Below, one piece after another: positions 4,217 to 25,401 of a stretch of 31,226 bases of DNA (positions are counted from its first letter, which is position 1; each line of letters begins with the position of its first letter). A program made the translations under genes and the position numbers. The stretch comes from a virus: IMG/VR virus record IMGVR_UViG_3300027692_000007, positions 1-31,226 of that record, one strand, 5' to 3'. A model generated the notes under the pieces. The model was not told the origin of the DNA and searched no databases. It saw nothing but the letters and a program-made list of their open reading frames with translations.

Positions 4217-5443
4217 TTAGTACCCGATGCAGATGATGTCGAAGTTGATGTTGCCGGCTCCCGTTCCGCCCGTGCCGTATCCGACGACGGTAAAGCCACC
4301 CGCGGTGAGCGAGTTAGCCTCAAGCACAAAAACCGGCGGCCCGCTTCCTGTTACGCCTTGTATTGCGAAGATTACCGCGTAGGTCGCGCCGCTCGTGAAC
4401 TGCGCATCACCGACGAACGAGACCGTCGTCGAGCCGATCGTATTCCCGCTGAAGGTGATACTGTAGGCCGCGGCTCGGCTTGCCACGATGTGCGGGTTAT
4501 TCAGCTGCGAACCGCCTGGGTTGTAGACCGGAAGCGACGAGACGGCCGACGACGTCTCAAGGTTGATCTTGTTCCCGGTAGGATTCGTAATCGCGATCGT
4601 GCCGCCGGAAGAGTCCAGAAGAATAGCGCCGGTGAGCGCCCCGAGCGCCGCCGGGTTGATGCTCAGAACGCCCGTGTTGGTGATAAGCCACTGGAACGAC
4701 TGGTCCTGGACGCCGGTCGCGCCGTTGACGTTGATTCCCGCTCCACCTTCGGCGTACGGGTTGGCCGTCGCCGTGCCCCCATCGTTGACGGGGAGCGGAG
4801 TTTCAAGACCGATAACTGGATTCGCCGCCGTTCCGCTTTCGGTGATCGGAGCATTAACGGCCACACTCTGCACGCCGCCGGCTCCCTGGATGACCGAGAT
4901 CGTTTGATTCGGCCAAGATCCCGTGATAACGACGCTCGTACCGGCGATGAGCGACGGATCTCCCGAACCGCTTCCACCGAAGATAACAGCGAGCGGCGTA
5001 TCCAATCCGATGATCGGGTCGACACCCGTGCCAAGATTTGTAATCGGCGCCTGCACGCCAACGTCCACCGTCGGCGGCGTTGCGGTACGGAACGGCGTGT
5101 ACGGAATCGTCGAAGCGTAGAAATAGAACGGGAGCGCTGGCCCGGTGATCGTGACGACCGGCGCATCGTTCGGAATCGAGACGAGCTCGGCCACGGAGCC
5201 GTCGGTAACGTAGAAGGGCGTGCCGGTCGCGCTGTCTCCAGCGTAGAAGCTCATCGGCCCTTGCGGATCGGGGAACCACAGGCTCTTGACCGCCAGCCCG
5301 GAGACGAACGAGACCGTTAACGGGCCAAAGGTTGGATTGCCAGGGCCGCCCCACTGTAGCCATGCGTCGCTGCCAAGCGGCCCGGCTTGCCCGAGCGCGT
5401 AAACTTGGACGTCGTAGTTTGTCGGTTGAATCGGCGCTGTCAT
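4217..5443 (-). CDS. Tail fibre/collar-like protein with internal repeats
   Basis: A 408-aa Gly/Thr/Val-rich protein typical of trimeric phage fibres. Two copies of a 21-residue unit are visible at residues 131-151 (QAPITNLGTGVDPIIGLDTP) and 197-217 (NAPITESGTAANPVIGLETP), each followed by a Gly/Ser/Asn-rich stretch. The N-terminal part (residues about 28-56) has a WLQW...GLAVKSLWF strand pattern that also appears in the two genes upstream. The C-terminus (after residue 300) looks like a small beta head (ITFSGNTIGSTTVSFVGDAQ). The start codon overlaps the upstream stop (ATGA). The likely role is receptor binding or baseplate decoration, inferred from composition and position. Confidence 0.65.
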   Translation of the reverse strand: MTAPIQPTNYDVQVYALGQAGPLGSDAWLQWGGPGNPTFGPLTVSFVSGLAVKSLWFPDPQGPMSFYAGDSATGTPFYVTDGSVAELVSIPNDAPVVTITGPALPFYFYASTIPYTPFRTATPPTVDVGVQAPITNLGTGVDPIIGLDTPLAVIFGGSGSGDPSLIAGTSVVITGSWPNQTISVIQGAGGVQSVAVNAPITESGTAANPVIGLETPLPVNDGGTATANPYAEGGAGINVNGATGVQDQSFQWLITNTGVLSINPAALGALTGAILLDSSGGTIAITNPTGNKINLETSSAVSSLPVYNPGGSQLNNPHIVASRAAAYSITFSGNTIGSTTVSFVGDAQFTSGATYAVIFAIQGVTGSGPPVFVLEANSLTAGGFTVVGYGTGGTGAGNINFDIICIGY

Positions 5444-5814
5444 GGGTTACTGCTGCCTTCCATTAGAAGCCGGGCAATCCCCGACGTTGCGACCACATAA
5501 TACGTCTCGGAGCTCGTCGCTGTGAGCGTGACCTGTATCGTTCCGGGCGGCAACGGAACGGTCTGCGGGTTGTTTCCGTCATCGGGCGGAGTCGCCGTAT
5601 AAAAAGGGTTGCCGCCAGGGGGCACGGGTTCTGCGCTAAACGCGATCGGGACGTCAACCTTCGAAAGATAGAGCGCGCCGATTGGCTGATTACTCTCGAA
5701 CGCAATAACAAGCGGCGCGGCGTTCGGCGTCCATGGATAGGTCTGCGTGTAGAGCGGCCCATTCTGCGGTGGCGACTTCAAGGCCGCCAGCATATCCGCT
5801 ACGCCGGAGAACAT
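5440..5814 (-). CDS. Small tail-associated protein
   Basis: 124 aa if started at the ATG at 5814, chosen because GGAAG lies 6 nt upstream. Longer starts would run deep into the preceding gene. After a short helix (VADMLAALKS) the protein is beta-rich: YPWTPNAAPLVIAFESNQPI, GALYLSKVDVP, NPFYTATPPDDG, IQVTLTATSSETYYVVAT. Its W...LVIAF.S..PIGALY segment resembles segments in both flanking fibre-like genes, so it may be a single-domain member of the same module family. It overlaps both neighbours by a few bases, indicating coupled translation. Confidence 0.65.
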   Translation of the reverse strand: MFSGVADMLAALKSPPQNGPLYTQTYPWTPNAAPLVIAFESNQPIGALYLSKVDVPIAFSAEPVPPGGNPFYTATPPDDGNNPQTVPLPPGTIQVTLTATSSETYYVVATSGIARLLMEGSSNP

Positions 5815-6467
5815 AACTGCTTCCATAGCGGCATGATGAGCGATGACGCATAGACCGGAATCTGCGGGGGCGACGAGCGCGCAAGGTTCGTGACCACCCA
5901 AAGGGTCCGCACGGGTAGTCCATTAGAGAGCGATACTTGAAGCGCACCGCTCTGAGGAAACCACGTCACCCAGGTTCCATCCGTAGTTAGTGTCTGAGCG
6001 ACCACCGTCTCGACCCCGTTACTTACAGTAACGGACGAGTCGGCGAATCCAACCGGAACGGTCTCTGCGCCCATTTCCTTCATCGTGTAGAATGGCCCCG
6101 ATACGTTACCCGAAAAGATGAGCGGGTACGGCAGCATGCACGCGACCGACGCGATCGGGCCGAGAACCTCGAGGACCAGTTGCGTGATGCGCGCGAAAGC
6201 ACTTTCCGTCGGCGGTCCGAGAGCTTCAGCGAGAAGCTGCGTTATGCGCGCGGCGGTTGCCGGCGGCCCGAGCGGTTCAGCGTAAAGCTGCGTAACGCGA
6301 GCGTGAGCAAACACCGGTGCGAGCACCTCGACGTAAAGCTGCGTGATTCTCGCGGTTGACGACGTTGGGCCGAGAGCCTCGACGATCTCCTGCGTGATGC
6401 GAGCATGGCCTTCGTCCGCTCCAAGAACCTCGACGGTCTCTTGGGTGATTCGGCCAAAGCCGCTCAT
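5799..6467 (-). CDS. Tail protein with six N-terminal RITQ repeats
   Basis: A 222-aa protein. Residues 6 to about 109 are six tandem copies of a unit of about 17 residues, RITQ-x2-[VA]E-[VAP]L[GA]P-x5-A, with start points at residues 6, 23, 40, 57 (RVTQ), 74 and 93. The fifth unit has two extra residues. Residues 110-222 form a beta-rich domain containing GTWVTWFPQSGALQVSLSNG and LPVRTLWVV, similar in pattern to the N-terminal part of the fibre-like protein downstream. R[IV]TQ...E.L repeats occur in other phage tail proteins (family knowledge, not searched). The repeats probably form an extended or oligomeric stalk. No signal peptide is present. Confidence 0.7.
   Translation of the reverse strand: MSGFGRITQETVEVLGADEGHARITQEIVEALGPTSSTARITQLYVEVLAPVFAHARVTQLYAEPLGPPATAARITQLLAEALGPPTESAFARITQLVLEVLGPIASVACMLPYPLIFSGNVSGPFYTMKEMGAETVPVGFADSSVTVSNGVETVVAQTLTTDGTWVTWFPQSGALQVSLSNGLPVRTLWVVTNLARSSPPQIPVYASSLIMPLWKQLCSPA
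6141..6452 (-). repeat. Six tandem 51-bp coding repeats (RITQ units)
   Basis: On the minus strand the units begin at codons 6, 23, 40, 57, 74 and 93 of the gene, so spacing is 51 nt four times and then 57 nt. The plus strand shows the recurring text tgcgtgat or tgcgttat followed by gcgcg at each unit, while the rest of each unit has diverged. The divergence suggests an old duplication kept for protein structure rather than a recent slippage repeat. Confidence 0.85.
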
Positions 6468-7796: not shown

Positions 7797-8156
7797 TTAT
7801 CCTTCTCCTATTAGACGGCGCGCGGGCGCCTGGATTGGGTCGGTTGTGGTAGTGGTTACGTTCTCCGCGCCCGTCGGCGCTCCGCTCGGCGTGACGATTG
7901 GAGCGTTCTCCACGACGGTTGTCGCCGGCGCCCCCGCCTTTACGCTGAAGATGCGGACGAGTTGCGCCGAGAGCGTTCCGAACGCACCGACGACGGCCGA
8001 CGAGATAATCGCCCAGGCGGGCACAACTGAAGGCGCTCCGGGATGCAGTTGCGCTTGTACCGAGACAACGGTCGTCAGGATGAGCGCGCTTAGGATGCCG
8101 CAGACGCCTGCGGTTCCCGTCAGGATTGAGATAATGTCGGGCGCCTTTAGTTTCAT
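7797..8156 (-). CDS. Holin-like two-TM membrane protein
   Basis: 119 aa from the ATG at 8156, which has AGAAAGG upstream. An alternative reading extended to 8246 is Arg-rich and overlaps the preceding gene. Two hydrophobic helices are clear: residues about 8-32 (ISILTGTAGVCGILSALILT) and about 43-65 (VVPAWAIISSAVVGAFGTLS), with a short linker. A Thr/Pro/Ala-rich hydrophilic tail follows. Size, topology and position beside another small membrane protein fit a phage holin. No endolysin lies alongside, so the lysis role is inferred from topology only. Confidence 0.6.
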   Translation of the reverse strand: MKLKAPDIISILTGTAGVCGILSALILTTVVSVQAQLHPGAPSVVPAWAIISSAVVGAFGTLSAQLVRIFSVKAGAPATTVVENAPIVTPSGAPTGAENVTTTTTDPIQAPARRLIGEG

Positions 8157-8166
8157 TTGTGCCTTT

Positions 8167-8550
8167 CTATTTTGTCGGTGTTGGGACGAAGGAGTGCGTA
8201 AAGTAGAACGTGAGTGCGACCGTGACGGCCGCCGCGAGGATGGCAACGAGTAACTGGTTCATTTTTCCGACTATCGCGGCCTGAGAACTCGCCTGCAACT
8301 GCTCTACCTTCCCTAGCCGATCTTCCACCGACTTGTGCTCGGCGTTGTACGTCGAAATAGGGAGGTACGTTAGCGCCTGCTGCGCGGCCATAGCTTTGAT
8401 TTCGTTCATGCCTTCCAGGCGCTTGTCTTGCGCTGCTACGGCCGTCTTGACCGCCTCCTCCTGAGACACGAAACGGTTGGTATAGAGCGCGTCCTTGTCC
8501 ACGAGGCGCTGATCGACGTACTCCTTGAGTGAGTTTATGTCCCACGGCAT
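8167..8550 (-). CDS. Coiled-coil protein with C-terminal TM anchor (spanin/holin-like)
   Basis: 127 aa. A long helical region (residues 5-95) contains LKEYVDQRLVDKDALYTNRF, VAAQDKRLEGMNEIKAMAAQ and a predicted coiled coil VEDRLGKVEQLQASSQAAIV. It ends in one hydrophobic helix, residues about 101-120 (LLVAILAAAVTVALTFYF), and a short Pro/Thr tail. This architecture (helix-rich ectodomain plus one C-terminal TM) is common in phage lysis cassettes. The start ATG immediately follows the TGA of the 32-aa ORF upstream. Confidence 0.65.
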   Translation of the reverse strand: MPWDINSLKEYVDQRLVDKDALYTNRFVSQEEAVKTAVAAQDKRLEGMNEIKAMAAQQALTYLPISTYNAEHKSVEDRLGKVEQLQASSQAAIVGKMNQLLVAILAAAVTVALTFYFTHSFVPTPTK

Positions 8551-8649
8551 TCATCGGGCTTTCACTGGCTTGCGGCGACCACTCCACCACACCATCGCCG
8601 GGAACCACGCGAACGCCGAGAGGATCACCAGGTCTCCAAGAATCTTCAT
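8551..8649 (-). CDS. 32-aa membrane microprotein
   Basis: A short ORF bridging two genes. Its ATG overlaps the stop of the collagen-like gene (TAATG), and its TGA directly precedes the next ATG. The peptide begins [16 protein letters not shown], continues with a further hydrophobic PAMVWW segment and ends SGRRKPVKAR. This is a single TM helix with a positive C-terminus. No clear ribosome-binding site is visible, so translation would rely on coupling. A small holin or antiholin is possible but not shown. Confidence 0.45.
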   Translation of the reverse strand: MKILGDLVILSAFAWFPAMVWWSGRRKPVKAR

Positions 8650-10370
8650 TAGCAGTGGTAGTCCGCGCCGACTTGGCCGCTCGCGCCGGATATCGCCTTG
8701 AACGTTACGGTGAGCGTGGTCGATGAGACGCTTTGAGAAACGACCGTGAACAGTCCGAGCGTTCCGCTGGTTAGCGTTGTATCCAGAGACGAAGTGCAGA
8801 TTGCACCGGATGCCACGGTGGCCGTTGCGGTGCACGCGAGCACGGAAAGCGTGCAGGAAACCTGTCCCTGGTTCGTGGTTAACCCAACGCACGGTAGAAG
8901 CGTGTAGCCGGGATAACCGCTAACGCCGCTCGTCGCTGGCCCCGTGCAGACCGACTGGTTCGCCCCTACGTACGGAAGCCCTAAGCCTGCAACTCCACTG
9001 CAGCCCGTACAGCCCGGTCCAAACAGGATGCCGTTGTTACCGGAGCCGTCATAGAAGCCGCACGGCGAACCGGTTGAGGTGCATTGCTCTGACCAAAATC
9101 CACCGACCGAATTTGTGTCATGCAGCGTGGAGGAACCATTCGTAATATAGTACTCACTTGAATAAATGGCGTTTAATCCAATATCGCCATGCTCGCCCAT
9201 TGTAATGTACGGAGTCGTGATGCCGGGGCACCCAAGAGCGAGCAGTTGCCCAACGACACCGCCAAGAGCAGAGCTTGACGTTCCCCATACAGAGTAGTTT
9301 CCAGCCTCGCATTGGCCTTCGCCATTCTGGACGAGCATCGCGCTTGGATACGGCGACGGCAACGGTGGACCAGTAGCGACAGGATTAAACGGCGCGTCAC
9401 CAATGATAATTTGTCCAAGAGCCAGCGCCGAGGTTCCCGGCGGGTTGGCCGACGGGACGGCAGTTGCGGGATACGGCGTCGTAAATATGACGCCAACGGT
9501 GTTCCCCGAGCTCGTATTTGCAACGAGGCAAGAGGGGCACGACACGTTGACTTGTCCCGGAGGCGTCGAGACGACGATCGGAGGCGACCCGGAGGCCGAA
9601 ACCGTGACGCCTGGCGCTCCGCTCGGACCCATCGTTCCGATCGGGCCAGTTGTTCCCGGAGGTCCGCTTGGTCCGGTCGGTCCGTTTGGACCCGTAGTTC
9701 CAGCCGGTCCCGTCGTTCCCGTAGGACCGGTCGTTCCCGGTGCGCCCGAAGGCCCCGTTGTTCCAGCAGGCCCGGTCGTTCCCGCCGGTCCTGTCGTTCC
9801 GGCCGGCCCCGTAATGCCAGCAGGACCTTGAGTTCCTACCGGTCCCGGTCCGCCGGTTGGGCCAGTCGTTCCAGCGGGTCCAGTAGTTCCAGCCGGCCCG
9901 GTTGTGCCAGCCGCGCCGGGAGCACCGGACGGACCGGTCGTTCCGGCGGCGCCGATCGTTCCGGCAGGTCCCGGAGATCCGCTAGGCCCAGGAGCCCCTG
10001 AAGGCCCGGTGGTTCCTGCGGCACCCGGAGATCCAGCCGCTCCCGGAGATCCTGAAGCGCCGACCATTCCCGAAGGTAAGACGCACGGTGAAGCCGTCGT
10101 GAGGTTGATTTGCGAACCGGACGTCGGTGAAGAAACCGGTGTGACCGATATGCAGTTGCCGCCTACGACGTTGGCCGCTCCGCCGGGATTCGGACCTGGA
10201 TACTCCGGCCCGCACACGACGAGCCCTTGAATGTCGGTGTAGCACCCGCTCGGGATCGGCGAGATCGTTGCGCCGATCACCGAGGATGAGAACCGGCCGG
10301 GAACGATGAGCGCCGCGCACGACGCGAAAATCATCGTAGCAACGAATGCGGATGCGAGAAGGCGGTTCAT
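8649..10370 (-). CDS. Collagen-like secreted or fibre protein (downstream copy)
   Basis: A 573-aa protein. Residues 1-25 look like a signal peptide ([20 protein letters not shown]). Residues about 38-103 are a Cys-containing module ([20 protein letters not shown], then [14 protein letters not shown] and [10 protein letters not shown]), shared with the next gene upstream. Residues 104-253 are 50 uninterrupted Gly-X-Y triplets, mostly GTT, GPA, GPS and GAP. A large C-terminal region has Cys-rich and beta-rich sequence and ends in a small CTSSLDTT-type domain with GADYHC at the C-terminus. The ATG directly follows the previous stop codon. A trimeric collagen-like fibre is likely. A cleavable signal peptide would be unusual for a virion fibre. 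Confidence 0.75.
9612..10061 (-). repeat. Collagen Gly-X-Y coding repeat (50 triplets)
   Basis: 150 codons read as unbroken G-X-Y triplets. The most frequent pair is GPA-GTT. At DNA level the plus strand shows repeating ccngtngttcc blocks of 9 or 18 nt, so slippage-driven length variation is plausible. Confidence 0.9.
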
Positions 10371-11729
10371 TTACCAGGCTCCATTCGGTTGCCAGTAGGC
10401 CGTCGTCGTGGCCGTATTTCCAGGTATTACGATAAGACCGCCGCCAGCGCAAACGTGAGCAATGTATCCAGTCGAGCCGTTCACTAGGTTCGGAGCGATG
10501 TACGGAAACGCCCAAAAGCGCGCTCCTGCGTTAGAGTTTGCCGCCGAGCCCCCCAGACCGCTTGCAACACCGGCAAGAGGAAAGGCTCCAAGAGCGTACG
10601 GCTGGTCCCAGTTCGTCGTGCCTCCCGATTCATAGCACGCTCCGAATGCGAGAAGAAGGTCATTGCTAGGGATCGGAACGGGGGAGGCAACGATTACTAC
10701 GGTATTCGCCGCTCCTACGAATCCCGTGGCGGTTGGAATCGGGCTTGGCGAAGCGTTTGCTATCTCCGCTACGACGATTTGCTGCCCAACGTTTCCGGTG
10801 ATAGTTACTGGAGATACGGTTGATGCCGAACTGCCAACTACCTGGTAGGAAGCGTACGCGCCGACGTTTCCAGAGACGCCCGTATTGAAAAGTCCTGTCC
10901 AGCCTGAAGCCGTGGTAACCGAGGTAGCTCCGCCTCCCCATCCCAAGAGCATCGTAACTAGCAGGTTGCCAACCGTCGTCGCGCGTTCGCACGGTATCGC
11001 GGGAGTTCCCGAGCTTGCGGTATTTTGAAGTTCGCAGCGATTGACGACGAACGGAAGTCCGGTGTATGCGCCGACGTAGGAAAACATTTTCATTCCCGCC
11101 CAAGTCGTGTCGGTCGCTATGTCAAGTTGCCCAGCTTGCGCTGGAACACTCGACGGAACGCCAGCCGCATAAATAATACTGGCCGCTCCGGTGCTGCACG
11201 TTGGACAGCTATAGGTAACGGTGTTTGCCACCGCCGTACTAACGACAACCGGCGCGATCGCCGTATAAGTACCGTTTGCGCCCGGAGCACCGCTTGGACC
11301 GGTCGTCCCTGCCGGGCCGGTAGTTCCCGCGGGACCGGTAGTGCCTGCCGGGCCAGTCGTCCCTGCTGGACCTGTCGTACCCGCGGGACCGGTCGTTCCT
11401 GCGGGGCCTTGCGTTCCCGGAGGTCCGCTTGCGCCGACCATACCGGAAGGCAGCACACACGGCGACGCGCTCGGATTGACAGCAATAACGGAGCCCGCCG
11501 TCGGCGACGATGTTGGCGAAATCGAAATACAGTTTCCACCGATGACATTCGCAGCGCCGCCGCCAGGGCCGGGGTAGTTTGGCCCACAAACCGGCAAACC
11601 GCTCGCGTCGGTATAGCATCCACTTGGAAGCGGCGTCGCAGCTTCGAGACCGTTCGAAACCTGAGCGCCTATCTCGACGAGTCCGATCGCCATAACGACG
11701 GCCATGAAACCAACAAATAACTTACGCAT
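10371..11729 (-). CDS. Collagen-like secreted or fibre protein (upstream copy)
   Basis: 452 aa from the ATG at 11729, which overlaps the adaptor stop codon (TAATG). The N-terminus is a signal-peptide-like sequence ([20 protein letters not shown]) and is followed at residues about 33-98 by the shared module ([47 protein letters not shown]). Residues 99-155 are 19 Gly-X-Y triplets, six of them pairs of GPA-GTT. The C-terminal 300 residues form a beta-rich domain unrelated by eye to that of the downstream copy (for example [20 protein letters not shown] and [12 protein letters not shown]). The two genes look like a duplication in which the tip domains have diverged or been exchanged. Confidence 0.75.
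11265..11435 (-). repeat. Collagen Gly-X-Y coding repeat (19 triplets)
   Basis: 57 codons of perfect Gly-X-Y, with GPA-GTT repeated six times. The underlying DNA is close to an 18-bp tandem repeat, and its codon variants differ mostly at third positions. Confidence 0.9.
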
Positions 11730-12625
11730 TAGGGATACCCGCTGTAGGCACCATTTCGCCTCCATCGCGCGCCAACATATCGCTGCCTGTTCGTCTGCAT
11801 ATTGATCCGGTCGTAAGACCGGTAACTCTTAGCCCAAAACATCATCTGCTGGATCTGATTGCGGTACTGCTCGGCTGCCCAATCGCGCGTGCGAGAGTTG
11901 GCCGAGTCATCGGCAGCCAGCATCCGCTCGACGAGCCCGGCGACCAAGACGTTGAGAAAGTTGTTCGGGAACCAAATGCGCTGGCCGACGTTCGAAAGGC
12001 AGCGCGGCTGCACCGTCGCGGCGTTCCAAGTGTACGGCCCAACGTAGGCATCGCTTATGCACATATCGACAACGAGGTTAGGGATAGGATTCCCATTCGT
12101 ATCGAGTTGCGCAGAGGCGTTCGGCGGCGGAACGACGACCAGATTGCCCCCGTGAATCGCGTAGACTCCGGGCGACCGGCCGCACGACCACGGCGCCGTC
12201 AAGGACCGAAGATTTGAGTAGGTCGGCATCGGAAAGCTCGTCGGCGGAGCGACTGTCCACGACGGAACGAACATTCCCGCGTTTCCCGTCGGCCCGTCGC
12301 TGTTGGCGTTCGGCGTGCCGAAGCCGGTCGAATCAAAGTAGCCGATCTGCTGGCCCTGCAACGTCTCAATATCGGTCTTCGTGAGCAGTTGACCGTTGAG
12401 CCAAACGCACCCGGTGCCGTCGTCGATCGGCGTTTCGGGTAGCAGGTACGAGCCTTGATTGGCAACCGTCGCGGTCGAAATGCGTGCGAACGGAAACTTG
12501 ACCTGCGTTATAACGTCGAGGCATACAAGGTCGAGTTGCCCGAGCAGCGCGTCGTTCGAGTAGGTTCCGGGCTCGGGGTCTTTTGCGAGCGTCCGCGCCG
12601 GCTTGATAATCTGACTTACCAGCAC
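11729..12625 (-). CDS. Head-tail adaptor (gp11/gp4-like)
   Basis: A 298-aa protein with a GTG start one base after the preceding stop. The N-terminus has the usual adaptor pattern: a helix ([14 protein letters not shown]), a Ser/Asp turn ([20 protein letters not shown]) and then a strand-rich insert. The C-terminus is helical ([37 protein letters not shown]) and ends in a basic stretch. In podoviruses this protein joins the portal ring to the nozzle. Here it lies downstream of the capsid group and upstream of the tail genes, which fits that role. No small protein of the neck-completion type is separately recognisable. Confidence 0.65.
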
Positions 12626-12626
12626 G

Positions 12627-13184
12627 TTATTGCCCTAGACTTGCGGGGGTCTCCAGCGTGGTGAAAACGATGACGTTGCCATCCTGCAACGGCTGGAGAA
12701 ACGCGGCGAGCTCTTTCCAATCGACGTTGAGCATACGCTGGCAACCGTAAGTCCGAAAAAGACCCTGGTTGTCGGCCAGCGGGTCGGGAGAGTTGCTCCC
12801 TCCGCAGTGAATCATAATGCCGCTGCGGTCGTATTGCGAAAGCTGCGCGAGCGGCGCCTCGATCCCGCCGATTGTCGCCGTGAGTCCATTGACCGTCGCG
12901 TAGCCGCCCTGCATGAGCTTAGCGAGAGAGCCCGCGTCGACGTCCAACACCGGAATTTGCCCATAGCCTTCACTTGCGATTGGCGTGTCGAAAACGTCAA
13001 CGGGACCGAGAACATAATGCCCGACGGGTGCCCAACAATCATATCCCCAGGGAGGCAGAGCGCCTTCAACTACGCCGTAGTTTCCCCAAGCGTCTCCCGA
13101 AGATTCGAAATACTCCCATAGTGACCCGTCGCGCGTGAAAACCTTCAGCGTGTTTTGGCTACGGGCCGCTACAAGATGGATCAC
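12627..13184 (-). CDS. L,D-transpeptidase (YkuD)-like protein
   Basis: 185 aa from GTG 13184, which overlaps the stop of the lysine-rich gene (TAGTG). Residues 122-154 carry the family signature: His126 in GIMIHCGGS, then Cys148 and Arg150 in LFRTYGCQRMLNVD, corresponding to HxG...[ST]xGCxR[LM]. An upstream WAPVGHYVLGPVDV resembles the TPxGxY strand that precedes the catalytic core in such enzymes. L,D-transpeptidases exchange or form meso-diaminopimelate cross-links in peptidoglycan through a Cys thioester. No signal peptide is seen, so a virion-borne wall-modifying enzyme is possible. Substrate and activity are inferred. Confidence 0.65.
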   Translation of the reverse strand: MIHLVAARSQNTLKVFTRDGSLWEYFESSGDAWGNYGVVEGALPPWGYDCWAPVGHYVLGPVDVFDTPIASEGYGQIPVLDVDAGSLAKLMQGGYATVNGLTATIGGIEAPLAQLSQYDRSGIMIHCGGSNSPDPLADNQGLFRTYGCQRMLNVDWKELAAFLQPLQDGNVIVFTTLETPASLGQ

Positions 13185-13438
13185 TACTTCTTCTTGCGGC
13201 TCTTTTTCATCATGCCGCCCTTGCCGCCCATCGCCTTCTTCATGGCGGGCTGCGACTTGCGAGCGCCAGGAGCTTTGGTCGCGCCGAACGGCATCTTCTT
13301 CGAGGAGCCCTTCTTGCGCGAGGTCTTCTTCATGCCGCCCTTCTTGCCACCGAACTTGACGCCGCGAGCGGTCTTGCCGCCGGCAGGCTTGTGCGCCTTG
13401 GGCATCGAGGGCTTCTTGGTTTTCTTGGTTGCAGCCAC
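13184..13438 (-). CDS. Lysine-rich basic protein
   Basis: 84 aa from the GTG at 13438, chosen because AAGGAG lies 7 nt upstream. An in-frame start at 13462 has no such site. The protein is almost entirely Lys, Gly, Ala and Ser in histone-like blocks (KKTKKPSMPKAHKPAGGKTA, FGGKKGGMKKTSRKKGSSKK, MKKAMGGKGGMMKKSRKKK). It is too basic and too simple to be globular. DNA condensation or interaction with the packaged genome is a reasonable inference. It overlaps the transpeptidase-like start by one base. Confidence 0.7.
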   Translation of the reverse strand: MAATKKTKKPSMPKAHKPAGGKTARGVKFGGKKGGMKKTSRKKGSSKKMPFGATKAPGARKSQPAMKKAMGGKGGMMKKSRKKK

Positions 13439-13462
13439 TTTTGAACTCCTTGTCGCGAACAC

Positions 13463-13987
13463 TTACGGGATGCGAACGACCGCGACGGCAATATCGCCGG
13501 TTGCGCTCGTACACGTTGCAACGAAACGAACCGCGACCCACGGTTCAGGCGAGAAAGCCGATGTGCCGAGCGCCACCAGTGGGTTCGTCCACGTCGGCGT
13601 CGTTTCGGATTGCGGGAGCGCCCACTGGACCCACGAGGTTGTCGGGAGCGTAAAGCCTGGCGGGATCGCTTCGGGGTCGACGTTATTCTCGAGAGACATG
13701 AGGTACGCGCGATAGTCGTAGGTGCCGTAGCAGGCTACAGACCATCCGGTAATCGCCGACGTTCCAGTCTGAGCAAGAAGCTGCGCACCGGTCTTCGAGA
13801 AGAAGACGCCTGCCGGCGCAAGGATCGGACCCGTATCGTAGGTGCCGGAAGCCTTCGCCGCCCATCGCGCGGCGATCTCGGCAACGTAATTTAGGCCGGC
13901 GCCCGATCCCGCGAAAAGCTGGCAGTCGAACTCCCAGTCGCCTTCGGTCCGAATCTTGAAGTCGTTAGGCGTGTAGAGTCTACGCAT
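13463..13987 (-). CDS. Probable virion protein
   Basis: 174 aa from ATG 13987 (an alternative ATG lies at 13999). The start is inside the end of the HNH gene, so translation is coupled. The N-terminus MRRLYTPNDFKIRTEGDWEF leads into beta-rich segments (TGPILAPAGVFFSKTGAQLL, GWSVACYGTYDYRAYL). The C-terminus is a strand-rich PWVAVRFVATCTSATGDIAV. No catalytic motif or TM segment is visible. Its place between the capsid-associated and tail genes suggests a head-completion or neck protein. Confidence 0.65.
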   Translation of the reverse strand: MRRLYTPNDFKIRTEGDWEFDCQLFAGSGAGLNYVAEIAARWAAKASGTYDTGPILAPAGVFFSKTGAQLLAQTGTSAITGWSVACYGTYDYRAYLMSLENNVDPEAIPPGFTLPTTSWVQWALPQSETTPTWTNPLVALGTSAFSPEPWVAVRFVATCTSATGDIAVAVVRIP

Positions 13988-14513
13988 AAATCGGCGCATC
14001 CATCGAGTAGAGCTTTATGTACGCTTGCCATGTCTCCACTAGCTCAGGTGCCTTTTCTAAGTAACCTATGAACGTGTTGCAGCGGTCGCAAAGCAACCCG
14101 CGGATTTCTCCGGTCTCGTGATTGTGGTCTACGTTTAGCACGTCTCTTTTTGGCGGGCGGTCGCAGGTTGCACAGGAGCCGCCCTGGCGCAGCATCATTT
14201 CGCCGAACTGCTCAGGCGTCAACCCAAAGGTGCGCCGCAAGTGCCCTACGCGGGCTTGGACCCTGCGGGTCGGAAGAGTTTTACGGTGCCATGCGCGGGA
14301 AAAGCCGTTATGCTTTTCGCGGTTAACCGGGTCTTCTCGGTATTCGCGCATATAGAGCATGTGAGCTACGCGCTTTTCATCGCTGCTTTCTTTGCAAATA
14401 CGAGAGCAGTATTTGTGCCGGTTGTGTCTAGGGTTAAACCCTACGCCACAGGTCGCACAGAGTTGCACTTGCGCGGCTCTGGCCGCCCGCTGTTCATTGG
14501 TAAGTTTGGGCAT
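13980..14513 (-). CDS. Endonuclease VII-type HNH protein
   Basis: A 177-aa protein with two zinc-binding regions. The first is an N-terminal C19-x2-C22...C36-x3-C40 finger. The second is C114-x2-C117 followed by VDHNHETGEIRGLLCDRC (residues 128-145), the recombination endonuclease VII signature, with the D-H pair at 129-130 and C142/C145. T4 endonuclease VII resolves branched DNA, while small relatives in phage genomes are often free-standing homing nucleases. This copy sits between a virion gene and its apparent partner, and its 3' end overlaps the next start. That context favours a mobile element, though packaging use is possible. Its start codon lies inside a palindrome (GGGCATATGCCC). Confidence 0.85.
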   Translation of the reverse strand: MPKLTNEQRAARAAQVQLCATCGVGFNPRHNRHKYCSRICKESSDEKRVAHMLYMREYREDPVNREKHNGFSRAWHRKTLPTRRVQARVGHLRRTFGLTPEQFGEMMLRQGGSCATCDRPPKRDVLNVDHNHETGEIRGLLCDRCNTFIGYLEKAPELVETWQAYIKLYSMDAPIYA

Positions 14514-21476: not shown

Positions 21477-21728
21477 TTAGCCGCCTTTGCCGACTACCTT
21501 GACGCCTGGCCCAAAGCCTTTGCCTTTGCCTTCGCCGGGATACTCGACGATGTGGACGCCCTTGGGAAGCTCGACGGTTCCGTGCCCGCCTTTACCCTTG
21601 GCGGTCTTCTCGTGCTGGCGGCTGAGACCGTTGACGTGCTTCACGCCGCTCTTGCCGCCGCCGATTTTTTTGGCTTTGGCGTTGCTCTTCTTGGTGACTT
21701 TCGGGCGCTGTTTGATCGGTGTCGCCAT
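21477..21728 (-). CDS. Small basic Gly/Lys-rich protein
   Basis: 83 aa directly upstream of portal, separated from it by 6 nt. It begins MATPIKQRPKVTKKSNAKAK and continues with Gly/Lys-rich runs (KIGGGKSGVKHVNGLSRQHE, HIVEYPGEGKGKGFGPGV). It is strongly basic with no domain. It resembles the other lysine-rich proteins of this window in composition. A nucleic-acid or capsid-assembly role is likely but unproven. Confidence 0.65.
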   Translation of the reverse strand: MATPIKQRPKVTKKSNAKAKKIGGGKSGVKHVNGLSRQHEKTAKGKGGHGTVELPKGVHIVEYPGEGKGKGFGPGVKVVGKGG

Positions 21729-22178: not shown

Positions 22179-22571
22179 TTACGGTACGGATAGAGCGGCT
22201 ATACGCTCCCGTCTGGTGATTTGCCTCCGGTGGTGGGCATGGTGGCAACTTCGGCAAAGCCAGCGAACGTCGAGCGGCTTCCCGTAATCGTCGTGGTGGG
22301 CTTCCGTCTTGGCCGCGCCGCACCGTTCACAGGGACCCGGGGTTAGGCGACCGGACCTTACCGCGCGGGCAACTCTCTCCCGGATCGCATGCTGAAATCG
22401 CTTACGCTCGGGGTCTCTGAGGTCTCGTGCTTTGGAGGCAACCGCGACCTTGCGGGCGCAGGCTTCGCAGTGGACGCGCTCCGCTCTTGCCGGAGCCTTA
22501 TGGCAACGATGGCAGACACCTAGCTTCCGAGCTATCTCGTTGCGGAGCGCGCTCCTGTTAGCCTCGTCCAT
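22179..22571 (-). CDS. HNH endonuclease overlapping the terminase 3' end
   Basis: 130 aa from the ATG at 22571, chosen for AGAGGA upstream. Two zinc sites are visible: C20-x2-C23...C35-x2-C38, and C81-x2-C84...C106-x2-C109. A histidine-rich segment reads EAHHDDYGKPLDVRWLC (90-106), then RSCHHAHHRR. This is the HHxDY-type HNH arrangement common in free-standing phage homing nucleases. Its first 14 nt overlap the last codons of TerL, so it was probably inserted at or right after the terminase stop. It is expected to cleave related genomes that lack it. Confidence 0.75.
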   Translation of the reverse strand: MDEANRSALRNEIARKLGVCHRCHKAPARAERVHCEACARKVAVASKARDLRDPERKRFQHAIRERVARAVRSGRLTPGPCERCGAAKTEAHHDDYGKPLDVRWLCRSCHHAHHRRQITRRERIAALSVP

Positions 22572-24363
22572 ATCGTTTCCTCTTGAGATATTCGACGGTC
22601 TTGGAACCTGGCCTATAATCACGTGGGTCCGAGCCGTACTCTAAAGTGTTGAGCCAACGGGCCGCATCCGCTCCCGGTGGTGGACCCATAGCTAGACGGG
22701 AGACCTTTTCTGCTGGCAATCCATGAACGTTGCCATCGGGGTCAGTCCATGTAACGTCCCACTCCGGGGGATTATTCGCCTCCAACTGTTCCTCATAGTC
22801 GCCTTCATCCATAGGAACGAAGGGCAACACATAGTGCGACATGCTCCAGGAATCGATCGCGTCGTTCCGGATGAGCGACGGCCACTTGTCGATCTGCTGG
22901 AGAAGGTCGTAGCAGTATCCGCCGTAGTGATCGACCTGGCTCGGATCGTCGGCCATGCGGAAGAAGCACTGGTCATTGGAGACGTAGGTCTCCATCCGCC
23001 GGATGCGCTGATGCTTGGCACGGTGCCCGGACTTCTCGTGCTGCAAGGCCGAGAACGGCTGCACGACGCAATCGAGCGCCTCTCTTTGGATGAACTTGCC
23101 GATCTCCACGATGAGCCAAGCGTCGCCGCCGGCCGATTCGATCACGACTCGGTTGGGCCGATAGGTCAGGAGCATTTGCTTGATGATCTCAAGCGCGCGC
23201 GACGGGAGCAGAACGCGCTCGCGCGACTCAAGCGTGAACTGCCGGCGGTCGCGAGCGAACCCCGTGACCGTGAGGCCGTAGCCGCATGATCCGGTCTCGT
23301 CGGTAAGCGCCGGGTCGACGACGAGCGCGACGTAGAGCCGCACCTTTTCGCCGGCATACTGCGGGTCCAGGAGCGTGAGTGTCCGCTTGTACGGATACGA
23401 GAACTCGTACTTACCGGAGAACTTGTGAATGTTTTGCGGCTTGAACGGCTTTTCGGCCGGATCGACCATCCGGTTATACATCCACGCATTGAAGCGCCGT
23501 ACGTCGACCTTGAGACGCATAGCCTCCAGCCGCTCTTCGTCAAGGTAGGCCGGAAAGTAATACTCCCACGAGCCGTCCGCGACTTGCCACTTGGCTTCAA
23601 AAATGTACGTCTTCCACGGCAGGTCTTCTTCGGCGACGCCTGCACGGCGCGCGGCTTCGTTGAGCGCCTCGACTCGTCCGTAACAGTCGATCTCAGACCA
23701 CCGCGTGCCGGTCAGAAGCGTTGCGCCCCAGGACGGCATTTGCGGTTCAAACGCCTCGATATAATTCCAGAGCGTCTCTTGCTCTTTGATCGAGTCGCAG
23801 TTTACTTCCGTTACAAGGTCGTCGCCGTAGATAAAGTCAGGATGGTTGCCGGTCGACGTGCCGCTCGTGCCCATCGTGAAGACGGTCGGGTCGGCACGCG
23901 AGACCGTGCGCCACGGAATCACGATCGCGTCTTCGTTCCAGAGCTCGGAGCCAAAGTACGGGTCGCCGAAAAAGTGCGTGACCCTCGGGCTGCGCAGAAT
24001 GTTTTTGGTGAGCCTCAGTAACTTTCGCGATTCGTCGCGCGTCGACCGAACAATGCCGATCGATATATCGGGATCTTTCAGGACGCGGCGCGCGATACTC
24101 TTAGCGACGCCGTACGTCTTATTTGAGAAGCGCGGCGCCAGGAACATCGACGAGAGCGGCTTGCGCCGTAGCTTGGACATATCGGGACCGGAGGAATCAA
24201 AGATCCCGAACATTTCCCTGTGCGGCTGATCGTAAATCGGCCACGGGTCGCTCGCCTTCCAAAAGGAAAACGTCGAGCGAAGCATGCTCCTGGCCTTGCG
24301 TTCGTCTTCGATTGAGAGGCTAGGTCGCGGCGGAACGTCGCCGCCGCGGGGACCGCGAGGCAT
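22558..24363 (-). CDS. terL: Terminase large subunit (packaging ATPase/nuclease)
   Basis: A 601-aa protein with the expected order of motifs. Walker A is APRFSNKTY (residues 76-84), of the [AP]RxxxKT kind rather than GxGKS. Walker B is DFIYGDDLV (177-185 region), and motif III is TGTRW (218-222). The nuclease half carries ALVVDPALT with D350, RVVIES with E409, and NDAIDSWS with D504, giving the RNase H-like acidic triad. It pumps DNA into the prohead through the portal and cuts the concatemer. The start ATG overlaps the previous stop (TAATG). No gene in the window could be confidently named small terminase. Confidence 0.92.
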   Translation of the reverse strand: MPRGPRGGDVPPRPSLSIEDERKARSMLRSTFSFWKASDPWPIYDQPHREMFGIFDSSGPDMSKLRRKPLSSMFLAPRFSNKTYGVAKSIARRVLKDPDISIGIVRSTRDESRKLLRLTKNILRSPRVTHFFGDPYFGSELWNEDAIVIPWRTVSRADPTVFTMGTSGTSTGNHPDFIYGDDLVTEVNCDSIKEQETLWNYIEAFEPQMPSWGATLLTGTRWSEIDCYGRVEALNEAARRAGVAEEDLPWKTYIFEAKWQVADGSWEYYFPAYLDEERLEAMRLKVDVRRFNAWMYNRMVDPAEKPFKPQNIHKFSGKYEFSYPYKRTLTLLDPQYAGEKVRLYVALVVDPALTDETGSCGYGLTVTGFARDRRQFTLESRERVLLPSRALEIIKQMLLTYRPNRVVIESAGGDAWLIVEIGKFIQREALDCVVQPFSALQHEKSGHRAKHQRIRRMETYVSNDQCFFRMADDPSQVDHYGGYCYDLLQQIDKWPSLIRNDAIDSWSMSHYVLPFVPMDEGDYEEQLEANNPPEWDVTWTDPDGNVHGLPAEKVSRLAMGPPPGADAARWLNTLEYGSDPRDYRPGSKTVEYLKRKRYGRG

Positions 24364-24989: not shown

Positions 24990-25274
24990 TCACGAGCGTC
25001 CCTTGTTCCTAGATTTGCGATTTGCCGCCTTGCGCGGCGGCTTCGTTTTGGTTGAGATATTGCGGCCCTGCGAGTCCTTGCTCGACTTTGGTTTCTTGGA
25101 GGCGGCCTTCTTCTTTTTGGATTTTCCCGCCGATTTGAGAGCGACGGCGACGGCCTGCTTCTGAGCGGCCTTCTTGCCGGACTTCTTGGCGGTCGCCTTA
25201 TTGCGCGGCCCCGCTTTAAACTCTTTGATATTCTTGCTGATCGTCTTGCGCGACGAGCCTTTTATGAGAGGCAT
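24990..25274 (-). CDS. DUF6496-type small basic protein
   Basis: 94 aa from the ATG at 25274. The N-terminal MPLIKGSSRKTISKNIKEF followed by AQKQAVAVALKSAGK is the pattern I recognise as the DUF6496 family of small phage and bacterial proteins (MP-x-KG-[KS]-S-x-KTIS-x-NI...[KR]QAVAIAL). The C-terminus is lysine-rich (KKKKAASKKPKSSKD and KTKPPRKAANRKSRNKGR). Its biochemical role is unknown. A nucleic-acid or packaging role fits its position upstream of terL. The start codon follows the upstream stop by one base, with GAGGG before it. Confidence 0.75.
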   Translation of the reverse strand: MPLIKGSSRKTISKNIKEFKAGPRNKATAKKSGKKAAQKQAVAVALKSAGKSKKKKAASKKPKSSKDSQGRNISTKTKPPRKAANRKSRNKGRS

Positions 25275-25275
25275 A

Positions 25276-25401
25276 TTATCCCTCGTCTCCCGCCACAATG
25301 GCGTCGATCGTCTCGTACTCCTCCGCGGCGGAGGTTGGCATCCAATCTTCGCTAGTGTCCTCTTGAACCCTTACGGTCGGCATGAGCCCATCGCAACTCA
25401 C
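25276..25401 (-). CDS. Acidic microprotein (41 aa)
   Basis: From GTG 25401, which overlaps the TGA of the upstream gene (GTGA). The sequence VSCDGLMPTVRVQEDTSEDW ends in an acidic EEYETIDAIVAGDEG. It is too short for domain assignment. The tight overlap on one side and one-base spacing on the other argue that it is translated. An ATG at 25383 is a shorter alternative. Confidence 0.5.
   Translation of the reverse strand: MSCDGLMPTVRVQEDTSEDWMPTSAAEEYETIDAIVAGDEG

Follow-up and report, generated by a model that had tools for sequence, protein, structure and literature searches.

A stalk and a tip are routinely enough for a phage fibre gene to be annotated as a receptor-binding protein of the virion, and tailed phages, as a rule, assemble wholly in the cytoplasm. 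Two adjacent genes of an uncultured phage, named here gpA and gpB, encode proteins with such a stalk and tip that also begin with a segment resembling an export signal. The question raised by this locus is whether their products are tail fibres of the virion or proteins sent to the envelope of the host.

Source phage and layout of the locus

The window, that is, the whole stretch of DNA analysed, is a 31,226-base IMG/VR record from an uncultured, podovirus-like soil phage without close cultured relatives. Nearly all of its genes lie on the minus strand, and its structural block holds portal-like, capsid, adaptor-like and nozzle-like genes alongside a terminase (22558-24363; PHROG match, E=1e-41); the adaptor and portal names come from matches under the curated cut-offs, and the label "nozzle" from size and position. 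No close relative of the window was found among 50,697 annotated phage records, in which the portal had no match either, and tblastn searches of gpA, gpB and the portal against annotated phages gave none. The terminase shared 21-25% identity with cultured podoviruses, among the matches listed. A weak likeness to SU10-like podoviruses was seen in the adaptor (PF24175, 20.5 bits against a cut-off of 27) and in the portal (PF23899, 16.7 bits against a cut-off of 30), and neither reached the SU10 model.

The first-pass annotation had placed two adjacent collagen-like genes at 8649-11729, and these coordinates proved exact. Both genes lie on the minus strand and encode collagen-like fibre proteins with a signal-like N-terminus, of 452 aa for gpB (10371..11729) and 573 aa for gpA (8649..10370), and both match Pfam Collagen (PF01391) above the cut-off (E=7.7e-9 and E=2.4e-18, respectively). 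The start ATG of gpB at 11729 overlaps the stop of the tail adaptor-like gene directly upstream (11729..12625, minus strand; SU10_adaptor, under the curated cut-off), and the start of gpA overlaps the stop of gpB. On the other side, immediately downstream of gpA, the pair is flanked by three small genes for membrane proteins (7797..8649, minus strand), which are lysis-cassette-like by position and topology only: one has a single TM (8551-8649), one a C-terminal TM (8167-8550) and one two TM (7797-8156). Small membrane-protein genes directly adjoin the fibre locus in every relative examined, and no holin, spanin or endolysin family matched. GC at third codon positions is 57-61% in gpA and gpB (8649-11729) versus 71-83% in six other structural genes measured, an unusual composition that is perhaps foreign or repeat-driven.

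Other features of the window were recorded in passing. The product of 5799-6467 has repeated RITQ...EALGP units near its start and matches phrog_13560, of unknown function (E=5.7e-11). An L,D-transpeptidase-like (YkuD) protein without a signal peptide is encoded at 12627-13190, between a basic protein and the adaptor; its match lies above the cut-off once trimmed to the likely start, and the gene is kept in relatives. The structural region also contains three small, very Lys-rich proteins (13184-13462, 21477-21728 and 24990-25298).

Anatomy of gpA and gpB

Both proteins are made up of five parts, all encoded on the minus strand, in which a signal-like start leads into a four-Cys module, the collagen stalk, a short SCP[TS]C neck and a distal part. 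In gpB, the signal-like segment (aa 1-31, 11637..11729; borders approximate) consists of MRK and a hydrophobic core at aa 4-22, whose character is kept in relatives, and it is followed by the four-Cys module (aa 33-95, 11445..11633; C38, C48, C67 and C91), a stalk of 20 Gly-X-Y triplets (aa 96-155, 11265..11444) and a distal part made of an SCPTC neck and a unique tip (aa 156-452, 10374..11264). In gpA, MNR and a hydrophobic core at aa 5-23 form the signal-like segment (aa 1-36, 10263..10370; borders approximate), and behind it come the four-Cys module (aa 37-100, 10071..10262; C43, C53, C73 and C96), a stalk of 52 triplets (aa 101-256, 9603..10070), an SCPSC neck with a Cys-rich middle (aa 257-501, 8868..9602) and a C-terminal domain with four invariant Cys (aa 502-573, 8652..8867).

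The common signal-like start and Cys module reported previously were confirmed, the two modules being 58-61% identical with all four Cys conserved. The triplet counts are near-identical to the 19 and 50 reported before, and 2,000 shuffles of each protein never gave runs above 7 (gpB) and 9 (gpA). Identical GPAGTT units differ from one another at third codon positions alone (0, 0, 0.64 and 0, 0, 0.57), and therefore the repeats appear to be selected as protein. Two observations led to the rejection of recent gene conversion within the pair: the N-terminal codons differ mostly at third positions (35, 28 and 71 of 101), and the repeats match as DNA at only 65-78%. Besides PF01391, no Pfam family matched at E<=0.1, including the PF08400 N-domain and the PF06820 C-domain. 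The C-termini had been described as unrelated, which holds past the neck, where no similarity was found between gpA and gpB; the short neck itself is shared ("APVVVST...VTYSCPTC" in gpB and "PPIVVST...VNVSCPSC" in gpA) and is present in the related contig G001 too.

Relatives and exchange of tips

Four viral contigs, G001 (48.5 kb), G002 (30.2 kb), G003 (48.1 kb) and G004 (18.3 kb), have the same gene order as the window, with capsids 98-99% and adaptors 83-89% identical, and a further related contig, PMUK01000233.1 (L033), belongs to a metagenome-assembled genome (MAG) of Eremiobacterota. In each of these five contigs a single gene takes the place of gpA and gpB, starting at or beside the adaptor stop, with an HNH gene intervening in G001. 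A 362-aa protein, 100% identical, is encoded at this locus in three separate assemblies, namely the MAG (L033:10001-11089), G002 and G004 (L012:8901-9989 and L013:8901-9989), and the five distinct proteins compared were those of gpA, gpB, G001, G002 and G003.

The N-terminal module of the relatives' proteins is 48-64% identical to that of gpB. The proteins of G001 and G002 end in the C-terminal domain of gpA (49-51% identity, with the four Cys invariant), and that of G003 ends in a lectin-like LamG domain of the concanavalin A-like kind (Laminin_G_3; 33.1 bits against a cut-off of 27.6, E=7.7e-8). The comparison of C-termini among relatives, proposed in the first-pass annotation, thus showed that four distinct phages with near-identical capsids share the N-terminal module and differ in the distal part attached to it. 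Its pattern of a duplicate stalk with a variable tip stands as regards the tip; the stalk is peculiar to the window phage, since the collagen is absent from the fibre-locus protein of all relatives. The locus thus combines a conserved base with an optional stalk and an exchanged tip.

As to the origin of the pair, gpB occupies the start position of the relatives' single gene and has the more typical N-terminal module (62-64% identical to G001 and G003), and the typical tip belongs to gpA; the simplest history would be an insertion or duplication inside one ancestral gene. Of two HNH-endonuclease-like genes recognised by eye, one separates the adaptor gene from the fibre gene in G001 (L011:8872-9393) and the other lies beside the YkuD and basic genes in the window (13980-14513); such mobile elements near a variable locus may aid its exchange.

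The phage group appears to be small. Searches of viral and genome contigs with the N-terminal module, and scans of viral contigs with capsid, nozzle and adaptor profiles, led back to members or fragments of this group alone. Outside the phage contig, neither the N-terminal module (149 genomes searched) nor the gpA tip domain (147 genomes searched) occurs in the phylum of the MAG; these scans gave one additional marginal match (G082, E=0.003). The match to a Chloroflexi locus (L034) spans 18 residues and was discarded as due to chance, the locus having no related genes.

The window also carries a separate, conventional fibre-like gene (4217..5443, minus strand), whose product has no export signal and one Cys. 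Its first 302 aa are conserved (61%) and its C-terminal ~100 residues are replaced in G003, and it is probably a conventional receptor-binding fibre, judging from these features. Since this gene has a swapped tip of its own, gpA and gpB need not be the receptor binder of the virion. The linker of the conventional fibre-like protein and the middle of the protein at the fibre locus of G001 are homologous (27% over 113 aa, E about 1e-6 to 8e-8), and in the G001 protein a Cys pair flanks the WP.QT motif that the two share.

Signal-like start and cysteines

In all five distinct proteins M-[KRN]-[KR] opens the sequence, one to two of the first five residues are positive, and a single hydrophobic segment without charges (aa 4-22 or 5-23) comes next. 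The mean KD of this segment is 1.84-2.36 over 19 residues, and most other proteins of the window reach at most 1.54 over 15 residues, the exceptions being two small membrane proteins. The positive n-region and N-terminal hydrophobic core of a Sec-exported protein are hence found in five of five. The segment drifts in sequence and holds its character, with a conserved Cys module behind it; in export signals the sequence varies and the character does not. Charge, hydropathy and this conservation of character in the five proteins are the grounds for the signal call. Small-residue pairs seen by eye near aa 15-35 do not fall at one aligned place, so that potential cleavage sites are non-uniform, and an uncleaved hydrophobic anchor would look no different. 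A lipoprotein reading of gpA (FASC) was rejected, as the Cys is not conserved: only gpA (C18) and G003 (C9) have a Cys there, unaligned, and the others have none. A small ORF of G003 (L048:12510-12740) also combines a signal-like start with a Cys/Pro-rich composition and is possibly another exported phage protein.

The five proteins have 18, 10, 18, 10 and 12 Cys after the signal-like segment, all even numbers, a parity that across five related proteins makes for weak statistics. Exported proteins of Gram-negative bacteria favour even Cys numbers (PMC7678975). Overall Cys content is 2.2-4.2% in these proteins versus 0-1.7% in other structural genes (0 in the capsid and 0.2% in the conventional fibre).

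Structure of the distal domains

AlphaFold gave low confidence for most of the gpA distal part, and its last 73 residues were modelled as a beta-sandwich (block pLDDT 56-78). The first PDB match of this C-terminal model in Foldseek was the H-type lectin SLL-2 (probability 0.89, E 0.26), and the top matches in VIA-align were tailspike C-termini (Sf6, Pam1, phi297 and AP22), Helix agglutinins, discoidins, R-pyocin fibres and capsule depolymerases (Z 5.8-8.1). An H-type lectin is a six-stranded, trimeric beta-sandwich with a GalNAc site. Residues 491-573 of gpA superpose on the tailspikes of Sf6 (4urr), AP22 (4y9v) and phi297 (4ru5), the R1 pyocin fibre (6cl5) and Helix agglutinins (4q56/2ccv) with Z 5.8-8.1 over 66-82 residues at 7-19% identity, on a weak model (pLDDT about 56-78), and the same weak model gives Z 6.0-7.3 against SLL-2 and Helix agglutinins. 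In contrast to these tailspike and lectin structures, the gpA domain carries four invariant Cys and has no sequence match to them. A Z near 8 can reflect a common arrangement, and the resemblance of the modelled last domain to tailspike C-termini and H-type lectins, at Z 6.0-8.1, is supportive and not proof. For gpA, Z up to 8.1 on a weak model hints at a possible fibre- or tailspike-fold distal domain; the AlphaFold model of the gpB tip has a pLDDT of 31.7. The gpB tip has no relative in viral contigs, phylum genomes, Pfam, PHROGs or PDB sequences, and its best PDB match, the avidin family (E=0.014), was not credible.

Host

The only host lead is the Eremiobacterota MAG whose contig PMUK01000233.1 carries the sister phage. 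Since the 13.5 kb read upstream on this contig is all phage-like or unassigned, the phage is assigned to this host through the binning of a single contig and not through integration. A VKOR-type disulfide catalyst is present in this MAG and in 81 of 147 genomes of the phylum, and a cultured member of Eremiobacterota is diderm, with a Gram-negative wall containing LPS (PMC9758169). In a diderm host Sec leads to the periplasm, so gpA and gpB would be periplasmic, membrane-anchored or released at lysis, and the neighbouring membrane-protein genes are consistent with the last of these.

Export or virion

The first-pass annotation had suggested that these may be secreted or surface proteins, and the sequences lend this some support through the signal-like start in five of five proteins, the even mature Cys counts, the separate conventional fibre gene and the nearby membrane proteins. 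From the architecture, the conserved base, the exchanged tips, the signal-like starts and the Cys parity we infer Sec export, disulfides, trimers, glycan binding and a masking or decoy activity on a receptor. We tentatively propose that gpA and gpB descend from phage fibres, are sent to the envelope through Sec and form trimers, which probably serve as blockers or decoys that bind glycans; we give this proposal somewhat less than an even chance. The proteins would be translated late in infection together with the tail adaptor, cross the inner membrane via a Sec-type signal and trimerise through the collagen stalk and the distal domain, and disulfides would lock the trimers in the oxidising envelope. 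They would act outside the cytoplasm, in the periplasm or membranes, and be free after lysis, with exchangeable lectin-like tips that may bind host surface glycans. Most plausibly they would block or decoy the receptor of the phage itself, which would keep progeny from adsorbing to infected cells or debris, or keep rivals out.

The main alternative, a serious one that we rate somewhat lower, is that both bind the receptor as tail fibres of the virion. They would then be built in the cytoplasm, their hydrophobic N-terminus and Cys module would dock on the adaptor or nozzle with the collagen and the tip outward, and tip exchange would change host range. Indeed, architecture, adaptor-side position and tip exchange are exactly those of virion receptor-binding fibres: gpB lies directly downstream of, and overlaps, the adaptor gene in the structural block, the collagen stalks match many PHROG tail-fibre families, the modelled last domain of gpA is tailspike C-terminus-like, and the locus is the most divergent in a set with 98-99% identical capsids. 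Moreover, the E. coli prophage collagen fibres are modular trimers whose N-terminus is taken as the virion attachment end (PMC3368898). The Cys of a virion fibre could be oxidised after lysis instead, and the 52-triplet stalk, about 45 nm by standard collagen geometry, is long for a periplasm if the host is diderm. However, a virion fibre does not account for the charged start and single TM-length hydrophobic core of all five proteins, unlike other fibre and tail genes here, nor for the high, even Cys counts, and a conventional fibre gene is already present. We lean to export over a virion role, and regard it as the more likely reading and not an established one, because it is not obvious what use a fibre built in the cytoplasm would have for a conserved start of this signal-like kind.

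Both sets of evidence would be reconciled if the proteins were exported first and joined the virion later: they would fold and form disulfides in the periplasm, and the conserved Cys module would let virions pick them up while lysis proceeds or once it is over. The export signal and the Cys would then agree with the adaptor-linked position and fibre-type tips, and yet no precedent was found in the literature searched, and we consider this unlikely. A wider idea, with a small chance of being right, is that a tailed phage sends its fibres via Sec to fold in the periplasm, where they gain disulfides, and that they are then either joined to virions during lysis or remain free, as decoys that mimic the tail fibre of the phage itself. 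The single N-terminal TM-like segment and the adjacent small TM proteins in relatives would also suit inner-membrane-anchored periplasmic trimers that act with these neighbours in lysis, an accessory role for which exchanged lectin-like tips are superfluous and no holin, spanin or endolysin family matched, and which is very improbable. Surface-active tail proteins of phages, PblB among them, reportedly mediate the adhesion of bacteria (PMC4508584), but a prophage-made adhesin giving its host a new surface protein is hardly to be expected here, as integrase or repressor were not recognised in the parts of the sequence read, gpA and gpB lie inside the late structural block, and 149 phylum genomes lack a homologue outside phage contigs.

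If the fibre family is exported as we propose, host-range inference from such genes would be wrong for these phages, and large, exchangeable phage proteins that bind glycans and act on the envelope of the host would emerge as a class; assembly of tail fibres outside the cytoplasm, if true, would break the cytoplasmic-assembly rule for tailed phages. The locus makes export testable, as it offers a conserved 60-residue export and Cys module, swapped tips and a conventional fibre gene as internal control.

Comparison with known systems

Two general traits of collagen tail fibres are present, namely a continuous Gly-X-Y stalk and a place in the structural block directly after the adaptor. As in the E. 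coli prophage collagen fibres EPclA-D (PMC3368898), the stalk stands between an N-terminal module and a distal domain, in a modular protein encoded in the structural region; unlike them, gpA and gpB lack PF08400 and PF06820, have a signal-like start, are Cys-rich and end in other distal domains. In phage T5, Llp is an exported, disulfide-bonded protein that blocks the receptor of the phage itself (PMC9586334), and gpA and gpB, if exported, would resemble the superinfection-exclusion lipoproteins Llp and Cor as phage proteins that leave the cytoplasm, contain disulfides and act on the envelope. Llp and Cor are small lipoproteins, whereas gpA and gpB are large collagen fibres without a conserved lipobox Cys and are not members of the Llp family. 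PblA and PblB (PMC4508584), likened here by description and not by sequence, are also tail-type proteins with a possible surface role, and they come from streptococcal, temperate phages. Set against these systems, the locus is real and well bounded, and it is an unusual variant of phage collagen fibres.
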